A stretch of 64,000 bases of DNA from Aliikangiella marina (GTDB taxonomy: Bacteria > Pseudomonadota > Gammaproteobacteria > Enterobacterales > Kangiellaceae): assembly GCF_007004765.1 (NCBI RefSeq), contig NZ_VIKR01000003.1, positions 496,001 through 560,000 of the forward strand, given 5' to 3'. The notes under the pieces were generated by a model, which saw nothing but the letters and a program-made list of their open reading frames with translations, was not told the origin of the DNA and ran no database searches. The translations under genes and the position numbers were made by a program. Shown one piece after another: positions 37,156 through 50,418 of the stretch. Every line of letters begins with the position of its first letter. Position 1 is the first letter of the stretch.

Positions 37156-37566
37156 TTAAACTTGTGTTATCGAACACAAAGGCACTTTAGAGCAGTGCTC
37201 GAAACGCAGGGGAAAATGGAAACCTACTAGATTAGGTAACCGAATGGATTCATAAATAAGTAATAAAAAATCGATTTTTCGGGTACTTTGTATACTAAGT
37301 CACTCTCTGCGGAGGGTGACTTTGACACTTTAAGTCAAGCCACCCATATTTATCCAAATTCATACCAATATCTCACATATTTATCTCAATTTATATCCTT
37401 TTAAATCAATGGGTTAATGAAATTTATCTCAATTTATGTGCTTTTCGAATCTCACCTGGGTATCTTGAGGTTGTGGCCAGCGAAATCGGTTAATGAGATT
37501 AAAAATTAACGCGTTATTGCAACTGGCACCTTTAAATCAATATGAAGTTTGTTTGGAGAATTTACG
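37156..37566. promoter_or_regulatory. higBA upstream region with three iterated AT-rich repeats
   Basis: This 411-bp gene-free region holds a 10-bp G:U-containing hairpin (37298-37321). It also has three related 18-20-nt repeats at 37346-37363, 37377-37396 and 37420-37439; the last two share TTTATCTCAATTTAT. They lie 130-220 bp before higB and may be operator sites for HigA or HigBA. Confidence 0.6.
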
Positions 37567-37830
37567 TTGAAAGTTGTTGCTACTAATAAAATCACAGAAG
37601 CCCAATCAAGATATCCAGCTGCAGATAATCATCTATGCGCTTGGTACCTGATTATGAGCCGAGGCAACTTCCATTCGGAACAGGACTTACGTGCCACCTT
37701 TGGTGACATGCGCGGATTTAACTATCAGTACAAGTTCCCTATTCCGGAAACAACCTTACTTGTTCACACTTTAATCAACTTTGAGTCGCAGGTGGCTTAT
37801 ATCGATGAGATTAAGCCAGGAAATCACTAG
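37567..37830 (+). CDS. higB: HigB-type mRNA interferase toxin
   Basis: An 87-residue RelE-superfamily toxin of the HigB branch, which cleaves mRNA on the ribosome. Family elements are LKVVATNKITEAQSRYPAA, LCAWYLIMSRGNFHSEQDL, GFNYQYKFPIP, LLVHTLINFESQVAYIDEI. Start is a TTG at 37567, placed because GGAG lies 8 nt upstream; an earlier in-frame TTG (37549) overlaps that site. The toxin gene precedes the antitoxin gene, the order typical of higBA, with a 12-bp gap. Confidence 0.88.
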   Translation: MKVVATNKITEAQSRYPAADNHLCAWYLIMSRGNFHSEQDLRATFGDMRGFNYQYKFPIPETTLLVHTLINFESQVAYIDEIKPGNH

Positions 37831-37842
37831 AGGAATGAAACG

Positions 37843-38250
37843 ATGCAAGAGACACTAGAAAGAGCAGTTATACACTGGAATATGGTGGCACCAGTGGTCG
37901 ATACGCCTAAGTGCCAAGAAGACTATGAGACTTTAATCGGTAACCTGAAAGAGACCATTGAGCTGGTTCAAAACCGACCGAATAGTCCACTAGCTGGGTT
38001 GATCAAGGCAATGTCTCGTGCAGCTCAGGAATACGAGAGCACCCACATGCTCAAGCAACAAGGTGGCGCGCTGTTAGCATTACGTTACTTAATCAAGTTG
38101 CATGGTGTGAAACAGTCGGATTTAAAAGAAATTGGAAGTCAAGGCGTGGTTTCAGAAGTTCTTAATGGTAAGCGCTCGCTAACCTTAAGACACGTGCGGT
38201 CACTATCACGTCGATTTAATGTTTCACCAAATACGTTTATTGACGCTTAA
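37843..38250 (+). CDS. higA: HigA-type antitoxin with HTH domain
   Basis: A 135-residue protein: an N-terminal toxin-neutralising region and a C-terminal XRE-type helix-turn-helix (about residues 82-130: LIKLHGVKQSDLKEIGSQGVVS, RHVRSLSRRFNVSPNTF). It should bind HigB and repress the operon. A good AGGAATGAAACG leader precedes its ATG. It ends just before a GC-rich hairpin. Confidence 0.88.
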   Translation: MQETLERAVIHWNMVAPVVDTPKCQEDYETLIGNLKETIELVQNRPNSPLAGLIKAMSRAAQEYESTHMLKQQGGALLALRYLIKLHGVKQSDLKEIGSQGVVSEVLNGKRSLTLRHVRSLSRRFNVSPNTFIDA

Positions 38251-40115: not shown

Positions 40116-40553
40116 GTAAACAACTCTGTAATAAACCAGCGCTGATTATAACGTGACTTTTTGTTGAGAGATAACCATTAATATTACCCTGGTTGCGCGC
40201 CGCTAAGAATGTCTCCTTCACGTCTGTCACTGTGCAATTTTTAATCGCGATTTTATTTGTTGCTATTTCATACGATGTCAAAAAAAACCTTATAACTCAA
40301 CGAGATACGTGAGAATCTCGATGAGTAGATAGTCATCTCCTATTGTAATTAGATGATTGAAAATTTTGTGAACCATTTCTCGTTATTCTCTCCAGAGATG
40401 AGTCCCTAAATAAGTTAGGGATATTTTTGAAGGGTCGGATTGAAAAAATTGTTCAATTTTCGACCCAGTTCGACAGGGTGTTGGAGGTATGTAAAACGTG
40501 AAACGTGCCACTATCAAAATCAAAAGTCACACAGTGTAGTTAGAGGTGTCAAA
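40116..40553 (+). promoter_or_regulatory. Structured leader upstream of the hemerythrin/multihaem cluster
   Basis: A 438-bp region with three hairpins in succession. At 40295-40326 is a 12-bp inverted repeat with one mismatch. At 40403-40428 is a tccctaa/ttaggga stem followed by a T-rich tail, like an intrinsic terminator. At 40433-40466 gggtcg/cgaccc encloses an attgaa/ttcaat inner stem. The arrangement suggests transcription attenuation or another RNA switch, but it matches no riboswitch class I know. Confidence 0.55.
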
Positions 40554-41072
40554 GTGTTAAATTTTATAGGCAACTATTTTAAACAAAAAAAAGATAAAAA
40601 ATCGAAACCTGCAGTGGTGGTGAGTCATCCAAAAAGTAGTCAGTACACGATTAATTATGATCCGCATTTAATTAATGAGTTAGAGGGTGATCATGGAAAA
40701 TTAGTGGAACTATACGGACAAATTTGGTCAGAAGGCTTTGAAAAAAATGACTACGCGAAAACCGCGTCTTTGATCAGTCAATTTAAAAGTGACTTTCAAG
40801 CGCATCTGTTGACCGAGAACGTCAAATTCTATGTTTATTTAGAGCAGTCACTATCAAAAGATAAACACAATCTTGAGATAGTAAGAGAGTTCCGTACTGA
40901 TATGAATGAGATTGCCAATGCGGTGGTTAAATTTTGCAAGAAGTACTCAGGAAATTTCAATATCGCTCTGATACAGCAATTCAAGGATGATTACGCTACC
41001 GTTGGTGAGGTGCTTACGCGTCGCGTTAGTTTAGAGGAAAACTCACTCTACGTTTTATATCAGCCACATTGA
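40554..41072 (+). CDS. Hemerythrin-like four-helix protein
   Basis: A 172-residue soluble protein. Helix A has DHGKLVELY (H47), helix B AHLLTENVKFYVYLE (H84, E88), helix C REFRTDMNEI, and helix D RRVSLEENSLYVLY (E161/E162). This follows the hemerythrin HHE pattern, but the His normally found in helices C and D appear as Phe/Arg, so the diiron site may be incomplete; resemblance to the Rsd fold is also possible. GTG 40554 has GAGG 7 nt upstream; an in-frame TTG at 40440 falls inside a hairpin. First gene of the cluster with the flavocytochrome and haem proteins. Confidence 0.72.
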   Translation: MLNFIGNYFKQKKDKKSKPAVVVSHPKSSQYTINYDPHLINELEGDHGKLVELYGQIWSEGFEKNDYAKTASLISQFKSDFQAHLLTENVKFYVYLEQSLSKDKHNLEIVREFRTDMNEIANAVVKFCKKYSGNFNIALIQQFKDDYATVGEVLTRRVSLEENSLYVLYQPH

Positions 41073-41094
41073 GACTAATACGATGGGGTTGTAA

Positions 41095-43077
41095 GTGAGC
41101 GGTAATAATTTAGCCGAACCGTTACATGCCTATTTCAACGATCCGCTGGAAGCAGACCCGGTAGTTATCGTTGGTAATGGGCCGGTCGGCATCAAGGCTG
41201 CTCAACTTCTCGTTGCGAAATCGCAAGATAGCAAAATTGTTATATTTGGCGAGGAAAGAGAAGCACCTTACAACCGTGTTCAACTCTCCCAATACCTTGC
41301 GGGGAAAGTATCCGAAGCCGAACTCGATAATCCCCTCAAAATAGAAGACCATTCTCGCGTCGAGCAGAAACTCGGTCATAAAATTATCGCGGTAGATCGA
41401 CAGTTAAAAACCGTTACCGATGATCAAGGTAATGTAACCCCATATTCAAAATTAATTTTGGCAACCGGCTCTCAACCGGTAGTCCCTGCAATTGCTAATG
41501 TCGACCTAGAAGGTGTCTATACTTTTCGAACTTTGAATGACACTAAATCCCTTATCAATGAGCGAAGCTCTGCCTCAAAGCTTTATGTGATTGGTAGTGG
41601 CCCCTTGGGCCTTGAAACAGCGGTTGCCATGAAGCAGCCTAATAACGAAGTTAAACTCGAGGTTAGAAGTAACCTATTGAATCGTGACTTAGGTGAGCAA
41701 GCGCAAGAGGTGTTGAGCGATTATGTAAAAGCCTCTGGTATTGAAATTGTTCATCACAATCCTTTAGCTGCGATTATCGGTGACTCTCATATTGAGCAGA
41801 TCGAGTTACAAAATGGTGAGCGGATTGATTGTGACTGCTTGATTATTTGTGCGGGGGTTAAACCATCAACGTTTCTCGCTGAAAAAATCGGTTTAGAAAC
41901 TCGCAAGGGGATTGTCGTTGACGAAAAAATGCGTACCAGCGATCCCGATGTGTATGCGATTGGTGAGTGTTGTGAATTTGATGATATGACTTTCGGCATC
42001 GTGTCACCAGGATTTAGCCAAGCTAAGACGTGTGTTGAACATATTACCGGTAATTTCCATAGTTACTTTAATGAGAATATCCACGTTCAGGTTAAGTTTA
42101 ACGATTACACGACAGGATACTTTGGCGAACTTCTAGCGGAAGGAAGTCTTAATTATACCTATGTAAACCGATTAAAAGGGGTTTATCGAAAACTCGTTGT
42201 AAAAAACAACTTGCTGATTGGCGCTATCATAATCGGCAACTGGGATGAAGAAAACGAAATCAAGATTGCCGTTAAACAAAAAAAGAAACTCACTGAGAAA
42301 GCATTAAGAGAGTTTGAAATAACCGGGCTTATTCATCAGAAACCAAAGCAAAAGCTCGTCGAGCACTTACCCAGGGACTATATTGTTTGCTTGTGTGAAG
42401 GTGTAACTCGTGGAGAGCTTAGTCGAGCAATTACTTCCGGCTGCAGAACAGTTGAATCGCTCGGCGAGAAAACTTGTGCCGGAACAGTCTGTGGCTCTTG
42501 TAAACCGATGCTAATGAACTTACTTGATGCACCTGCACCCAACTTAGTGATGCGTCACCAAAAGTCGATTCTCTCGGCATCAATTCTATCGATCATTCTG
42601 ATCATTGCGACCGTCTTTTTCCAACCTTTGTCGATTGCCGAGTCCGTCCAGTTTAGCTGGCATATTGAAAAACTCTGGTTTGATAACTTTTGGAAACAAG
42701 TGAGCGGTTATAGCTTGCTCGGTTTATGTGTTTTTGCGAGCGCGCTAGCAATTCGCAAACGCTTTAAGAAGTTCAGAGTAGGACATGTCGATTCTTGGCG
42801 GTATGCACACTCAATCGTGGGTATCTTAGCTTTGGTGATGCTAATGGTGCATACCGGAATGCGTTTGGGAGACAACCTTAACTTTGCACTGATGGCCGTT
42901 TTTTTGGGGGCAACGCTTACCGGATCATTGGTTGGTGTTTTTATGGCGCGCAATCATCATTGGAGCGATTTTAAATTACGCAAACATAGGCTCTGGTGGT
43001 CACGGATTCATCATACCTTGCTGTGGATGCTACCGCCTTTATTAGGCTTCCATATTTTATCGGTTTATTACTTCTAA
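41095..43077 (+). CDS. Fused NirB-like FAD oxidoreductase, [2Fe-2S] BFD domain and di-haem b membrane domain
   Basis: A 660-residue fusion. Residues 20-320 form a NirB/rubredoxin-reductase-like FAD/NAD module (VVIVGNGPVGIKAAQLL, APYNRVQLSQYL, YVIGSGPLGLETAVAM, DVYAIGEC). C432, C434, C466 and C469 give the CxC-X31-CxxC of a BFD-like [2Fe-2S] domain. Five membrane helices follow (about 491-509, 537-553, 568-590, 597-618, 634-658). TM3 has H572/H586 and TM5 H639/H653, two HX13H pairs like the bis-haem ferric reductase/NOX family. Loops at 554-566 and 619-633 are basic, placing the flavin module inside. No sirohaem domain. Electrons would pass from NAD(P)H across the membrane. Confidence 0.85.
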   Translation: MSGNNLAEPLHAYFNDPLEADPVVIVGNGPVGIKAAQLLVAKSQDSKIVIFGEEREAPYNRVQLSQYLAGKVSEAELDNPLKIEDHSRVEQKLGHKIIAVDRQLKTVTDDQGNVTPYSKLILATGSQPVVPAIANVDLEGVYTFRTLNDTKSLINERSSASKLYVIGSGPLGLETAVAMKQPNNEVKLEVRSNLLNRDLGEQAQEVLSDYVKASGIEIVHHNPLAAIIGDSHIEQIELQNGERIDCDCLIICAGVKPSTFLAEKIGLETRKGIVVDEKMRTSDPDVYAIGECCEFDDMTFGIVSPGFSQAKTCVEHITGNFHSYFNENIHVQVKFNDYTTGYFGELLAEGSLNYTYVNRLKGVYRKLVVKNNLLIGAIIIGNWDEENEIKIAVKQKKKLTEKALREFEITGLIHQKPKQKLVEHLPRDYIVCLCEGVTRGELSRAITSGCRTVESLGEKTCAGTVCGSCKPMLMNLLDAPAPNLVMRHQKSILSASILSIILIIATVFFQPLSIAESVQFSWHIEKLWFDNFWKQVSGYSLLGLCVFASALAIRKRFKKFRVGHVDSWRYAHSIVGILALVMLMVHTGMRLGDNLNFALMAVFLGATLTGSLVGVFMARNHHWSDFKLRKHRLWWSRIHHTLLWMLPPLLGFHILSVYYF

Positions 43078-43084
43078 AATAATA

Positions 43085-44458
43085 ATGATTAAAGAAAAAG
43101 AGCAACGCATTAAAGTTGGCGTAATGCCGATAGGAATTGCCTTAACACTTATTATAGGGGCTTATCTTGGCTACAACTTATTTGAAGGTGATAAAAGTTT
43201 ATTTTTGGGTGGCGAAACTTCTCACGGGCACTATCAAATCGAGTTAGAGTGTCAAGCTTGTCATACGACCCCTTTTGCTTCGCAGGAAAAAATGCAACAA
43301 GCGTGTGAATCTTGCCATGCAGAAGAGCTTGACCGGGTTAACGATAGTCATCCAAAAAAAGTTTTTCTTGATCCGAGAAATGCTGACTTGCTCGCAACAC
43401 TCGATGCTAGACTCTGTGTTTCCTGCCATCGAGAGCACAAGCCTGAGATTACTCGTGACTTTGGGGTGACGCTTGCCGCAGATTTTTGTTTCCACTGTCA
43501 TCAAGATATTAAAGAAGAACGACCCAGTCATGCGGAATTTGAGTTTAAAACTTGTGCAACTTCTGGCTGTCATAATTTTCATGATAACAGTATGTTGTAC
43601 GAAAAATTTATTGCCAAACATTTGGATGAACCGGCAATAAAAGATCCTGCACGACTACCTGAAAAAACGGGGTTAAAACGTTGGTTAAAGAAAAATAAAA
43701 AAAAGCTGCCGCTTGATGTTGCAGAACCTCAAATGGATAGTTTTTCTTTTGAAGCAACTAATCAAGCGACCGTTGATTTGAGTCGAGTGGTTGAAGATTG
43801 GAAGTCAAGTATACATGCCCGCACCGATGCGAACTGTACGAGTTGTCACACCCAGAATGTTAGTCAAAACCATAACTCGTTTACCATAGCCTCAGTTGCA
43901 CCAGTCTGCGAATCTTGTCATAAACGGCAACACAAAGCGTTTCTTGAGAGCAAGCATGGTATGCGGTTAGCATTAGAACTCAGTCCCATGTCGACCGATA
44001 AAGCTCGACTAGAAGTCGATAAATCCCATAGTAAATCGTTAGACTGCAATAGTTGTCATAATCCTCATAGTTTAAATGTTGTCGAAGCGGCCATGGATTC
44101 ATGCTTGGGGTGTCACCAGGATACTCATAGTCAAAATTATAAAAATAGTAAACACTACCAATTATGGGCCCAGGAGATTCTTGGAGAAGCACCCAGTGGT
44201 AGTGGCGTTAGTTGTGCGACTTGTCACCTGCCTAAAGTTAAAAAAGGTCGCCGAGTTACGGTGATACATAATCAAAATTTAAACCTTCGACCCAATACAA
44301 AAATGTTGCGAAGCGTTTGTATGAATTGCCATGGTTTGGAGTTTTCAGTTAGTGCGCTGGCTGATGAAGCGCTGATCGAAAATAACTTTATCGGAATACC
44401 AACAAAGAAACATCAAACCTTTGAGTTGGTTAAGCAAAGGATGAAAAGTCGTCAATAA
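43085..44458 (+). CDS. Membrane-anchored 11-haem cytochrome c
   Basis: A 457-residue protein with one N-terminal membrane helix (about 13-30) and a periplasmic part. It carries ten CXXCH motifs (Cys56, 74, 111, 135, 251, 275, 321, 340, 377, 412) and one CX4CH (CATSGCH, Cys157-His163), so up to 11 covalent haems. A Lys/Pro-rich linker without haems (about 190-240) divides a 5-haem from a 6-haem half. It lies 7 bp after the flavocytochrome gene and is the likely next electron carrier. I cannot match it to a named enzyme such as NrfA, OTR or HAO. Confidence 0.9.
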   Translation: MIKEKEQRIKVGVMPIGIALTLIIGAYLGYNLFEGDKSLFLGGETSHGHYQIELECQACHTTPFASQEKMQQACESCHAEELDRVNDSHPKKVFLDPRNADLLATLDARLCVSCHREHKPEITRDFGVTLAADFCFHCHQDIKEERPSHAEFEFKTCATSGCHNFHDNSMLYEKFIAKHLDEPAIKDPARLPEKTGLKRWLKKNKKKLPLDVAEPQMDSFSFEATNQATVDLSRVVEDWKSSIHARTDANCTSCHTQNVSQNHNSFTIASVAPVCESCHKRQHKAFLESKHGMRLALELSPMSTDKARLEVDKSHSKSLDCNSCHNPHSLNVVEAAMDSCLGCHQDTHSQNYKNSKHYQLWAQEILGEAPSGSGVSCATCHLPKVKKGRRVTVIHNQNLNLRPNTKMLRSVCMNCHGLEFSVSALADEALIENNFIGIPTKKHQTFELVKQRMKSRQ

Positions 44459-44485
44459 TTTTTTAATCGTCTGGAGAATAGAGAA

Positions 44486-45046
44486 ATGAATAAACGCCAA
44501 TTAATCCGCAGTATTTGTGCTACCTCGATAGCATTATCGTCATTCAATGTTTTTGCAGGAGAGATCACTGCACAAAAAATGGCAGATGCAATTTTTGCAG
44601 TCATTGAAGCTGACCGAGCAACGTATACCCAAAAGGTTGTCCAGCGTTTGCAAAACGAAGAGGAAGTGATAACTGCAGAGGAACGTTGGAAAGAAGAGAG
44701 CGCGCTGCCACTGCCTGCGCAAATGTTGAGAATGGGGGCAGAAAGAGTCAGTGAGTCAAATGCAGGATTTAGTTATGCATTACTATCATTGTGGCCGATT
44801 AACAAACAGAACAAACCGAAAACGGCGCTCGAAACTAAAGGGCTGAAAATGGCTGCAGAAAAGTTGCAGAATTTTTATGGTGAAGAAACTCTCGGAGGCA
44901 AAACCTATTTTACCGCTGTTTATCCTGATATCGCAGTTTCTGAAGCGTGTGTAACTTGCCATAACGATCATATTGACACACCTAAGACGGATTTTAAAAT
45001 TGGTGATGTGATGGGCGGTGTGGTGATCAGGATTCCGCTCAACTGA
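44486..45046 (+). CDS. Periplasmic DUF3365 (Tll0287-like) monohaem protein
   Basis: A 186-residue exported protein with signal peptide (IRSICATSIALSSFNVFAG) and a DUF3365/Tll0287-like domain, PAS-related and found in haem sensors and small c-type cytochromes. It has one haem motif, CVTCH at Cys155, followed by the usual NDH. A good GGAGAA ribosome site precedes ATG 44486, 27 bp after the multihaem gene, so it is co-transcribed. It could be an electron acceptor or redox/NO sensor for the cluster. Confidence 0.86.
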   Translation: MNKRQLIRSICATSIALSSFNVFAGEITAQKMADAIFAVIEADRATYTQKVVQRLQNEEEVITAEERWKEESALPLPAQMLRMGAERVSESNAGFSYALLSLWPINKQNKPKTALETKGLKMAAEKLQNFYGEETLGGKTYFTAVYPDIAVSEACVTCHNDHIDTPKTDFKIGDVMGGVVIRIPLN

Positions 45047-48286: not shown

Positions 48287-48295
48287 TCTTCCATC

Positions 48296-48441
48296 TTGCT
48301 CTCGGGGTGCCTGAAATGTCGATTTGACATTTTGTTTTGCTGAGACGCGGGAATGCTTAGGAATCAAAGGTTTTCTAATTCTTTAAGTCATCCGCGAACC
48401 CGTAGTACCTGATCCGATTAGTATCGGCGTAGGGATGAGCC
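48296..48441 (+). promoter_or_regulatory. TPP riboswitch (THI element)
   Basis: The region has the conserved blocks of the thiamine pyrophosphate riboswitch in order: ctcggggtgcc, gctgaga, aaccc, tacctgatc and ggcgtagggatgag. An extended P3 arm lies between gctgaga and aacccg. It lies 110 bp before thiC and should reduce operon expression when TPP is plentiful. Confidence 0.95.
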
Positions 48442-48546
48442 AAACTCGAAAAATGTCACATCATTCGATCGACGCCTCTCTTACTCGATACCTTGTAAAA
48501 ATAATATCGAAGCGCATTTTATTGCATCGCGATATAGCCAAACTAA

Positions 48547-50418
<1,872 letters not shown>

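Follow-up and report, generated by a model that had tools for sequence, protein, structure and literature searches.

A gene cassette of Aliikangiella marina that probably encodes an NAD(P)H-to-periplasm electron conduit, with nitric oxide or nitrite as a tentative substrate

Aliikangiella marina (Gammaproteobacteria; Kangiellaceae) carries a cassette of four genes which very probably encodes a trans-membrane conduit delivering NAD(P)H electrons to the periplasm. The cassette was analysed within a window of 64,000 nucleotides (positions 496,001 to 560,000 of contig NZ_VIKR01000003.1, assembly GCF_007004765.1), to which all coordinates refer unless a locus is named. It comprises, in the order P0001, P0002, P0003 and P0004 and all on the plus strand, open reading frames (ORFs) for a hemerythrin-like (HHE) protein, a fusion of an FAD/NAD(P)H module with a [2Fe-2S] domain and five membrane helices, an 11-haem cytochrome c and a monohaem DUF3365 protein. 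The positions 40554..45046 given for these four ORFs in a preliminary description proved correct, and the intergenic gaps are 22, 7 and 27 bp. Nitric oxide (NO), or else nitrite, is our candidate substrate, for reduction or detoxification, with a probability that we place a little below even. The modules as such are known; the fusion, the conserved trio of fusion, cytochrome and DUF3365 protein, and the link to NO and nitrate appear to be undescribed in the open-access literature searched, in which no paper on the cassette was found, as the preliminary description had supposed (PMC9230427 and PMC13322032 do not concern it).

P0002 (41095..43077; 660 amino acids) is, according to its profile matches, the flavin and [2Fe-2S] half of NirB joined to a five-helix membrane domain. 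The NirB-like FAD/NAD module recognised earlier is confirmed by Pyr_redox_2 at residues 23-310 (41161..42024) and by the NirB profile TIGR02374, of which the match covers positions 1-492 of 794 only and reaches 334.1 bits, below the family cut-off of 578.35; the sirohaem/[4Fe-4S] catalytic half of NirB was left unmatched in this search. Rubredoxin_C (residues 352-397) and a BFD-like [2Fe-2S] domain (Fer2_BFD, PF04324, E 8.1e-13; residues 430-478, 42382..42528) follow, the latter with C432, C434, C466 and C469, which are invariant among 14 sequences. The spacing CxC-X29-33-CxxC recurs in all 48 full-length fusions compared, that of the window included, and the same 48 proteins contain two HX13H pairs within their last 130 amino acids, both features having been noted before. 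In P0002 the pairs are H572/H586 and H639/H653, located on the five membrane helices (approximately residues 489-658, 42559..43068). Lysine and arginine residues number 5 and 5 in the inside loops and 2 and 1 in the outside loops, which predicts an N-in/C-out topology with the flavin inside, as had been proposed; P0002 thus combines histidine pairs on helices with a flavin side facing inwards by charge, as expected of a trans-membrane flavocytochrome b. To judge from these motifs, the HX13H pairs probably bind haem b, and P0002 is presumed to be a cytochrome b. A weak match of the membrane domain to DUF4405 was obtained in 7 of 14 cases. In the AlphaFold model the flavin part is good, and the membrane part, which contains no haem, mostly has a pLDDT of 50-70; the fold search with this model covered residues 19-416.

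P0003 (43085..44458; 457 amino acids) is a cytochrome c anchored by an N-terminal helix, and it has 10 CxxCH motifs and one CX4CH motif, in agreement with the anchored 11-haem cytochrome named previously. The same count is shared by 46 of the 47 cytochromes examined, P0003 included, the exception being a sequence that runs into N. Its second half (residues 269-419, 43889..44341, haems 7-11) resembles the region of haems 2-5 of NrfA: it aligns with residues 152-321 of the E. coli protein (hhalign probability 84.6%, E 6.8e-6), and the P0003 family profile finds the eight-haem nitrite reductase at 6e-11. The CxxCK catalytic haem of the NrfA type is absent from P0003, which has CxxCH and one CX4CH only, and 12 histidines outside the haem motifs are invariant. 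The AlphaFold model of P0003 has a pLDDT of 44, too low for use. P0003 might itself reduce nitrite (or hydroxylamine) in the periplasm at the expense of NAD(P)H, like a NirB turned outwards, with P0004 as its electron or regulatory partner. The fusion of the NirB front half to a membrane domain, the similarity to NrfA and the eight-haem nitrite reductase, the linkage to nitrate assimilation described below and the invariant H357, which in one alignment lies opposite the stretch of NrfA that contains the distal histidine, all speak for such an enzyme, but with the CxxCK haem missing every haem may be six-coordinate, and NirB is already present in 21 of the 26 genomes that contain the unit, so that we regard this alternative as unlikely.

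P0004 (44486..45046; 186 amino acids) matches DUF3365 (PF11845, E 2.1e-22; Tll0287-like, sCache_heme) and has one CxxCH (C155-H159, 44948..44962), as stated for the monohaem protein in the preliminary description. With 57-71% identity among relatives it is the most conserved member of the cassette, compared with 39-63% for the fusion. It is presumably exported, its only hydrophobic stretch being N-terminal, and is free of fused membrane or signalling parts; neither P0004 nor its family profile has a sequence relative in the PDB. The mature domain contains no further cysteine, and an extra (axial) cysteine is likewise missing from all 51 cassette-type DUF3365 proteins, 50 of them encoded with a cassette and one by a lone gene of genome G301. 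This lone gene lies about 3 kb from genes for an MtrA-like decahaem protein and an MtrB/PioB porin (region L130:6956-14090). Among the 30 best-scoring other loci from 185 genomes, an axial cysteine located 83-84 residues before CxxCH occurs in 9 of 9 short stand-alone DUF3365 proteins and in none of the 20 longer ones, one locus being unread. According to a preprint (PMC12889525), a Cys-less sCache_heme protein bound NO tightly when assayed, and a stand-alone protein with Cys and His bound it weakly. Since P0004 consists of 186 residues alone and lacks the axial cysteine, it may be called stand-alone by build and of the NO type by ligand: from the redox stand-alone class it departs in the missing cysteine, and with the NO-binding class it shares the CxxCH without axial cysteine, not the fusion to signalling parts. 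A further mark of the NO-binding class is tight Fe(II)-NO binding without a stable oxy complex. As P0004 is closer to the longer, signalling-type DUF3365 proteins than to the short redox ones, it could also serve redox-coupled NO sensing, in which P0004 reports NO and the chain holds its haem ferrous. A sensor with eleven haems and an NAD(P)H enzyme would be elaborate, however, and the conserved neighbours included no recognisable receptor gene; we consider a sensing role very improbable.

In the mechanism that we prefer, the cassette would be an oxidoreductase that spans the inner membrane. The FAD of P0002 would oxidise NAD(P)H on the cytoplasmic side, and the electrons would pass through the [2Fe-2S] cluster to an inner b haem (H572/H639), to an outer b haem (H586/H653) stacked with it and further to the eleven haems of the anchored P0003 at the outer face of the membrane; the outward direction is suggested by the NAD(P)H module and the charge distribution across the membrane. 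P0003 would then reduce P0004 and/or a nitrogen oxide, most likely NO, which might be held by P0004, at its open haem, or by P0003 within its NrfA-like half. A cytoplasmic partner, hemerythrin-like in A. marina and a globin or truncated globin elsewhere, may handle or sense NO or O2 inside the cell, and the service of the whole would be to clear NO, or nitrite yielding NO, which arises in nitrate/nitrite metabolism. The acceptors proposed in the preliminary description were nitrite, NO, metal and oxygen; we narrow these to nitrogen oxides on the strength of relatives, because of the linkage to nasT and nrtA, the ANTAR-type leaders, the globins, the likeness of the second half of P0003 to NrfA and the missing axial cysteine of the sCache_heme protein. 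That NO is placed first and nitrite second follows from the neighbours in relatives.

All 24 whole-fusion loci retrieved from named genomes (19 Microbulbifer, one Simiduia, two Pleionea and two metagenome-assembled genomes; a 25th locus, L029, matches in the flavin part only and was excluded) keep the order fusion-cytochrome-DUF3365. In the class Gammaproteobacteria a full fusion was found in 24 of 369 genomes, a scan in which three candidates were scored per genome and fusions could be missed. The cytochrome is present in these 24 genomes and in G048, G286 and G284, and a DUF3365 match above 190 bits was found in 26, namely the 24 without G285 plus G048, G286 and G301. The three genes are adjacent in 21 of the 23 class loci fetched; of the other two, L084 has its cytochrome broken off by a run of N, and G285, the genome concerned (72% complete), gave no DUF3365 match of the cassette type, whereas L098 stops at a contig end with the remainder on another contig. 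Among 398 genomes of the phylum, the cytochrome was found in three, of which A. marina and one other belong to the class and the third belongs to a different class. Fusions found routinely without the cytochromes had been named as an argument against a single conduit, and this is not the pattern seen, since the cytochrome is kept with every full fusion (24 of 24 named and 24 of 24 class genomes) and adjoins it wherever the assembly shows the place.

The incomplete and variant loci suggest which parts are fixed. In G048 a contig end truncates the fusion directly in front of the membrane domain. The G286 locus, in which a membrane domain precedes the cytochrome and DUF3365 protein (L128:7348-8663), is a variant or a broken frame; a flavin module was matched in no frame by the front part of the ORF itself or by the roughly 440 bases that separate it from the contig end, for which reason G286 was not counted as a proven whole fusion. 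In a second cassette of G180 (L129:5723-9100) the flavin part is replaced by a GPP34 (Golgi phosphoprotein 3-like) domain, and the five-helix domain with both HX13H pairs is followed by a multihaem cytochrome and a DUF3365 protein. The variant of G532, from another class (L170:1-3723), contains FAD_binding_6/NAD_binding_1 between BFD and membrane domain; its fusion is cut at the front by the contig end, and 11 CxxCH were counted in its cytochrome. The constant unit seems to consist of membrane domain, cytochrome and DUF3365 protein. G284 encodes a lone 11-CxxCH relative of P0003 (L127:6415-8281) with neither fusion nor DUF3365 protein beside it, and the ORF 5' of it is presumably rhodanese-like.

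P0001 (40554..41072; 172 amino acids) matches PF01814 (E 9.7e-9), as do 16 of 16 homologues; it has no signal and no membrane helix, and its GTG start is consistent with the homologues. The di-iron site of an O2-carrying hemerythrin is formed by five histidines and two carboxylates. As H47, H84 and H105 are the only histidines invariant in the 16 homologues, the metal site of P0001 is uncertain: the label hemerythrin-like fits, but the sequences do not establish an O2-binding di-iron hemerythrin. The hhalign probability for a relation to E. coli YtfE (YtfE/RIC) is 0.3%. An identity as Rsd/AlgQ was rejected (22.7 bits, cut-off 35), the true Rsd being encoded elsewhere in the genome.

The preliminary description, whose NAD(P)H-to-periplasm conduit we uphold, had made the hemerythrin-like protein a fixed part of the chain, which the relatives do not support: it belongs to one branch and is an exchangeable accessory of that branch, not core, and other branches have a globin or truncated globin beside the trio. 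It is found near the trio in all 24 named-genome loci, 5' of the fusion (on the opposite strand in L027 and 3.2 kb upstream in L016), with a second copy 3' of the cassette in two Microbulbifer loci (L017:14118-14642 and L019:14165-14689). Over 25 class loci (the 23 loci L079-L101, L126 and L128, with G268 read jointly from L098 and L131) the accessory is a globin in 14, a truncated globin in 2 and hemerythrin-like in 2, and none was found in 7, among which L084 and L101 are cut short. The globin gene lies 3' of the DUF3365 gene; only L097 has it 5' of the fusion instead. Pfam bears out the examples scanned, which comprise one ANTAR regulator, one nitrate-binding-type protein and two each of the globins and truncated globins, and the two globins scanned match the globin part of NO-inducible flavohemoprotein below cut-off. 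A tree built from 48 fusions unites the hemerythrin-like loci in a clade (100/100) and pairs the two truncated-globin loci (100/100), with 13 globin loci in the remaining part (86/96); the accessory labels require 8 changes compared with 19.7 in shuffles, where L016 was entered as 'none' despite its hemerythrin-like gene and the globin label of L098 was taken from the other contig (L131).

The accessories all bind, or are supposed to bind, NO or O2. Globins and hemerythrins bind O2 as well, and a small cytochrome c gene follows in 9 of 23 class loci; the cassette could accordingly be an oxygen- or redox-linked valve which oxidises NAD(P)H at low oxygen and passes electrons to O2, peroxide or a periplasmic repair enzyme. 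To this we give a small chance, as nasT, nrtA and the ANTAR-type leaders point to nitrate/nitrite instead. In Bradyrhizobium a globin (Bjgb) and a flavoprotein (Flp) of a NasT-controlled nitrate operon detoxify NO, and Flp is proposed to reduce Bjgb (PMC4724949). By the same token, the FAD-[2Fe-2S] part of P0002 might chiefly reduce the globin or hemerythrin-like protein encoded beside the trio, this protein acting as a cytoplasmic NO dioxygenase or denitrosylase and the cytochromes as an overflow or sensing arm. The core is constant, though, with the accessory exchanged or not found, and the variant with GPP34 in place of the flavin part retains membrane domain, cytochrome and DUF3365 protein, which leaves only a slight chance for this scheme.

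NO or nitrite as the substrate of the conduit is suggested mainly by gene neighbourhoods in relatives. nasT-like genes lie near 10 of the 23 class loci (the call in L084 is a weak match, 1e-6), nrtA-like genes near 8 and either of them near 12. Tandem ANTAR-type hairpins, with six-base loops that have A first and G fourth (A1/G4), precede the fusion in 4 of the 6 loci where nasT is its direct 5' neighbour, with 0.11 expected from shuffles, and in 1 of 12 other class loci, with 0.10 expected, this one having nasT about 2 kb upstream; 18 of the 23 loci entered this test (L079, L080, L092, L098 and L101 were left out), and its groups were set after a first look. Three of the leaders fold at z -2.5 to -4.1, the drawn loops not always being of six bases. 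The tandem hexaloop hairpin is the element described for ANTAR proteins in PMC3369931. In addition, the 21 of 26 unit-bearing genomes with NirB over the cut-off compare with 18 of 53 without the unit (all genomes of G001-G060 lacking it; Fisher p 1e-4). A more specific version, namely that the cassette is partly NasT-controlled and turns over NO (or nitrite) in the periplasm with the Cys-less sCache_heme protein as NO-capturing or catalytic subunit, is possible and in our view rather doubtful; if it holds, a fold familiar from sensors would here serve catalysis.

Several observations weigh against this assignment or parts of it. That the substrate is NO or nitrite is suggested by sequence context. 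In the 27 loci of the window's own branch nasT-, nrtA- and globin-like genes were not found in the flanks, so that the substrate is borrowed from relatives. The nitrate operon of A. marina lies on another contig without the cassette; this operon (L172, G000:C1:546000-565999) contains genes for a NIT-ANTAR regulator, nrtABC-like ORFs, an Alginate_exp porin, nirB, a nirD-like ORF, a nasA-type reductase with BFD domain and a cysG-like ORF. An ANTAR-type leader is absent 5' of 12 hemerythrin-branch loci, which is a weak negative because the scan also missed A. marina's own nas leader. Scans with NsrR, FNR and NorR consensus motifs gave no shared upstream site, and FNR-like sites with 9 of 10 were present upstream in L083 and L088 only, both results being without a shuffle control. 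The NirB enrichment may stem from genome size or ancestry. For stand-alone sCache_heme proteins as a class, redox roles and not NO binding are proposed in PMC12889525. P0003 is perhaps a mere wire, since it lacks CxxCK and its 12 invariant histidines would suffice for 11 bis-His haems, and P0001 is without the full hemerythrin ligand set. Finally, two genomes keep membrane domain, cytochrome and DUF3365 protein with the flavin part not visible.

The electrons could also leave the cell for metals or electrodes. The 11-haem cytochrome has an MtrC/MtrF-domain match of 35.9 bits (cut-off 30), and the lone cassette-type DUF3365 gene of G301 has an MtrA-like decahaem protein and an MtrB/PioB porin encoded about 3 kb away; on the other hand, an MtrB-type porin was not recognised among those neighbours that were clustered and read, of which a part was scanned, and 4 loci have an Alginate_exp porin nearby, the type also encoded in the nas operon of A. 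marina. Extracellular electron transfer accordingly has a very slight chance. Should the NAD(P)H-to-periplasm conduit ending at NO or nitrite be real, about 7% of the gammaproteobacterial genomes sampled (the whole fusion in 24 of 369, and no less than its membrane domain before the cytochrome in 26) would have an uncharacterised outward route for NAD(P)H electrons, tied to nitrate assimilation in part of the carriers. It would mean a new fate for NO or nitrite, the re-use of the NirB front half as a membrane enzyme and a function for one kind of stand-alone sCache_heme protein, and it would account for the interchange of globins and hemerythrin-like proteins next to a single set of genes.

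Other features of the window concern its regulation and neighbours. The leader upstream of P0001 folds at z -2.05 and contains a terminator-like hairpin on the plus strand (40402..40422, 132 bp 5' of P0001) to which we assign no role; 8 such hairpins were found, compared with 4.5 expected in the region. PADLOC gave no anti-phage defence match. The sole Rfam match at gathering score is a TPP riboswitch (RF00059, 59.1 bits), which together with a thiC-like ORF after it spans 48293-50418; with this ORF about 8 kb downstream, an Rsd-thiC adjacency looks like coincidence. Two neighbouring short ORFs (37549-38250) presumably form a HigB/HigA toxin-antitoxin pair.

The cassette can be compared with several known systems. 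With NirB, the large subunit of the NADH-dependent assimilatory nitrite reductase, P0002 shares the FAD/NAD and BFD [2Fe-2S] domains and differs in having a membrane domain with two histidine pairs in place of the catalytic half. Within the superfamily of NrfA, eight-haem nitrite reductase and HAO, P0003 tracks NrfA haems 2-5 in residues 269-419, but it has no CxxCK haem, is anchored and carries six more haems in front, one of them CX4CH. Ferric reductases and NOX are single-chain flavocytochromes b which take up NAD(P)H electrons at a cytoplasmic flavin and pass them outwards over two b haems held by histidine pairs on helices. P0002 shares this layout and differs in the flavin fold, the added [2Fe-2S] domain and the fixed partner cytochrome c. 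Like MtrCAB and other porin-cytochrome systems, the cassette offers a multihaem conduit, but it would be fed with NAD(P)H by a fused enzyme, and an outer-membrane porin partner was not recognised among the scanned neighbours. P0004 has PF11845 and CxxCH in common with the sCache_heme proteins (PMC12889525), being stand-alone like their redox class and devoid of the axial cysteine like their NO-binding signalling class. The nearest working precedent is Bjgb-Flp (PMC4724949), where NasT controls a globin that likewise has an NAD(P)H flavoprotein beside it, in that case cytoplasmic and without membrane haems or a multihaem cytochrome. There is a reasonable chance that the cassette is a distinct system beside the known trans-membrane flavocytochrome conduits.

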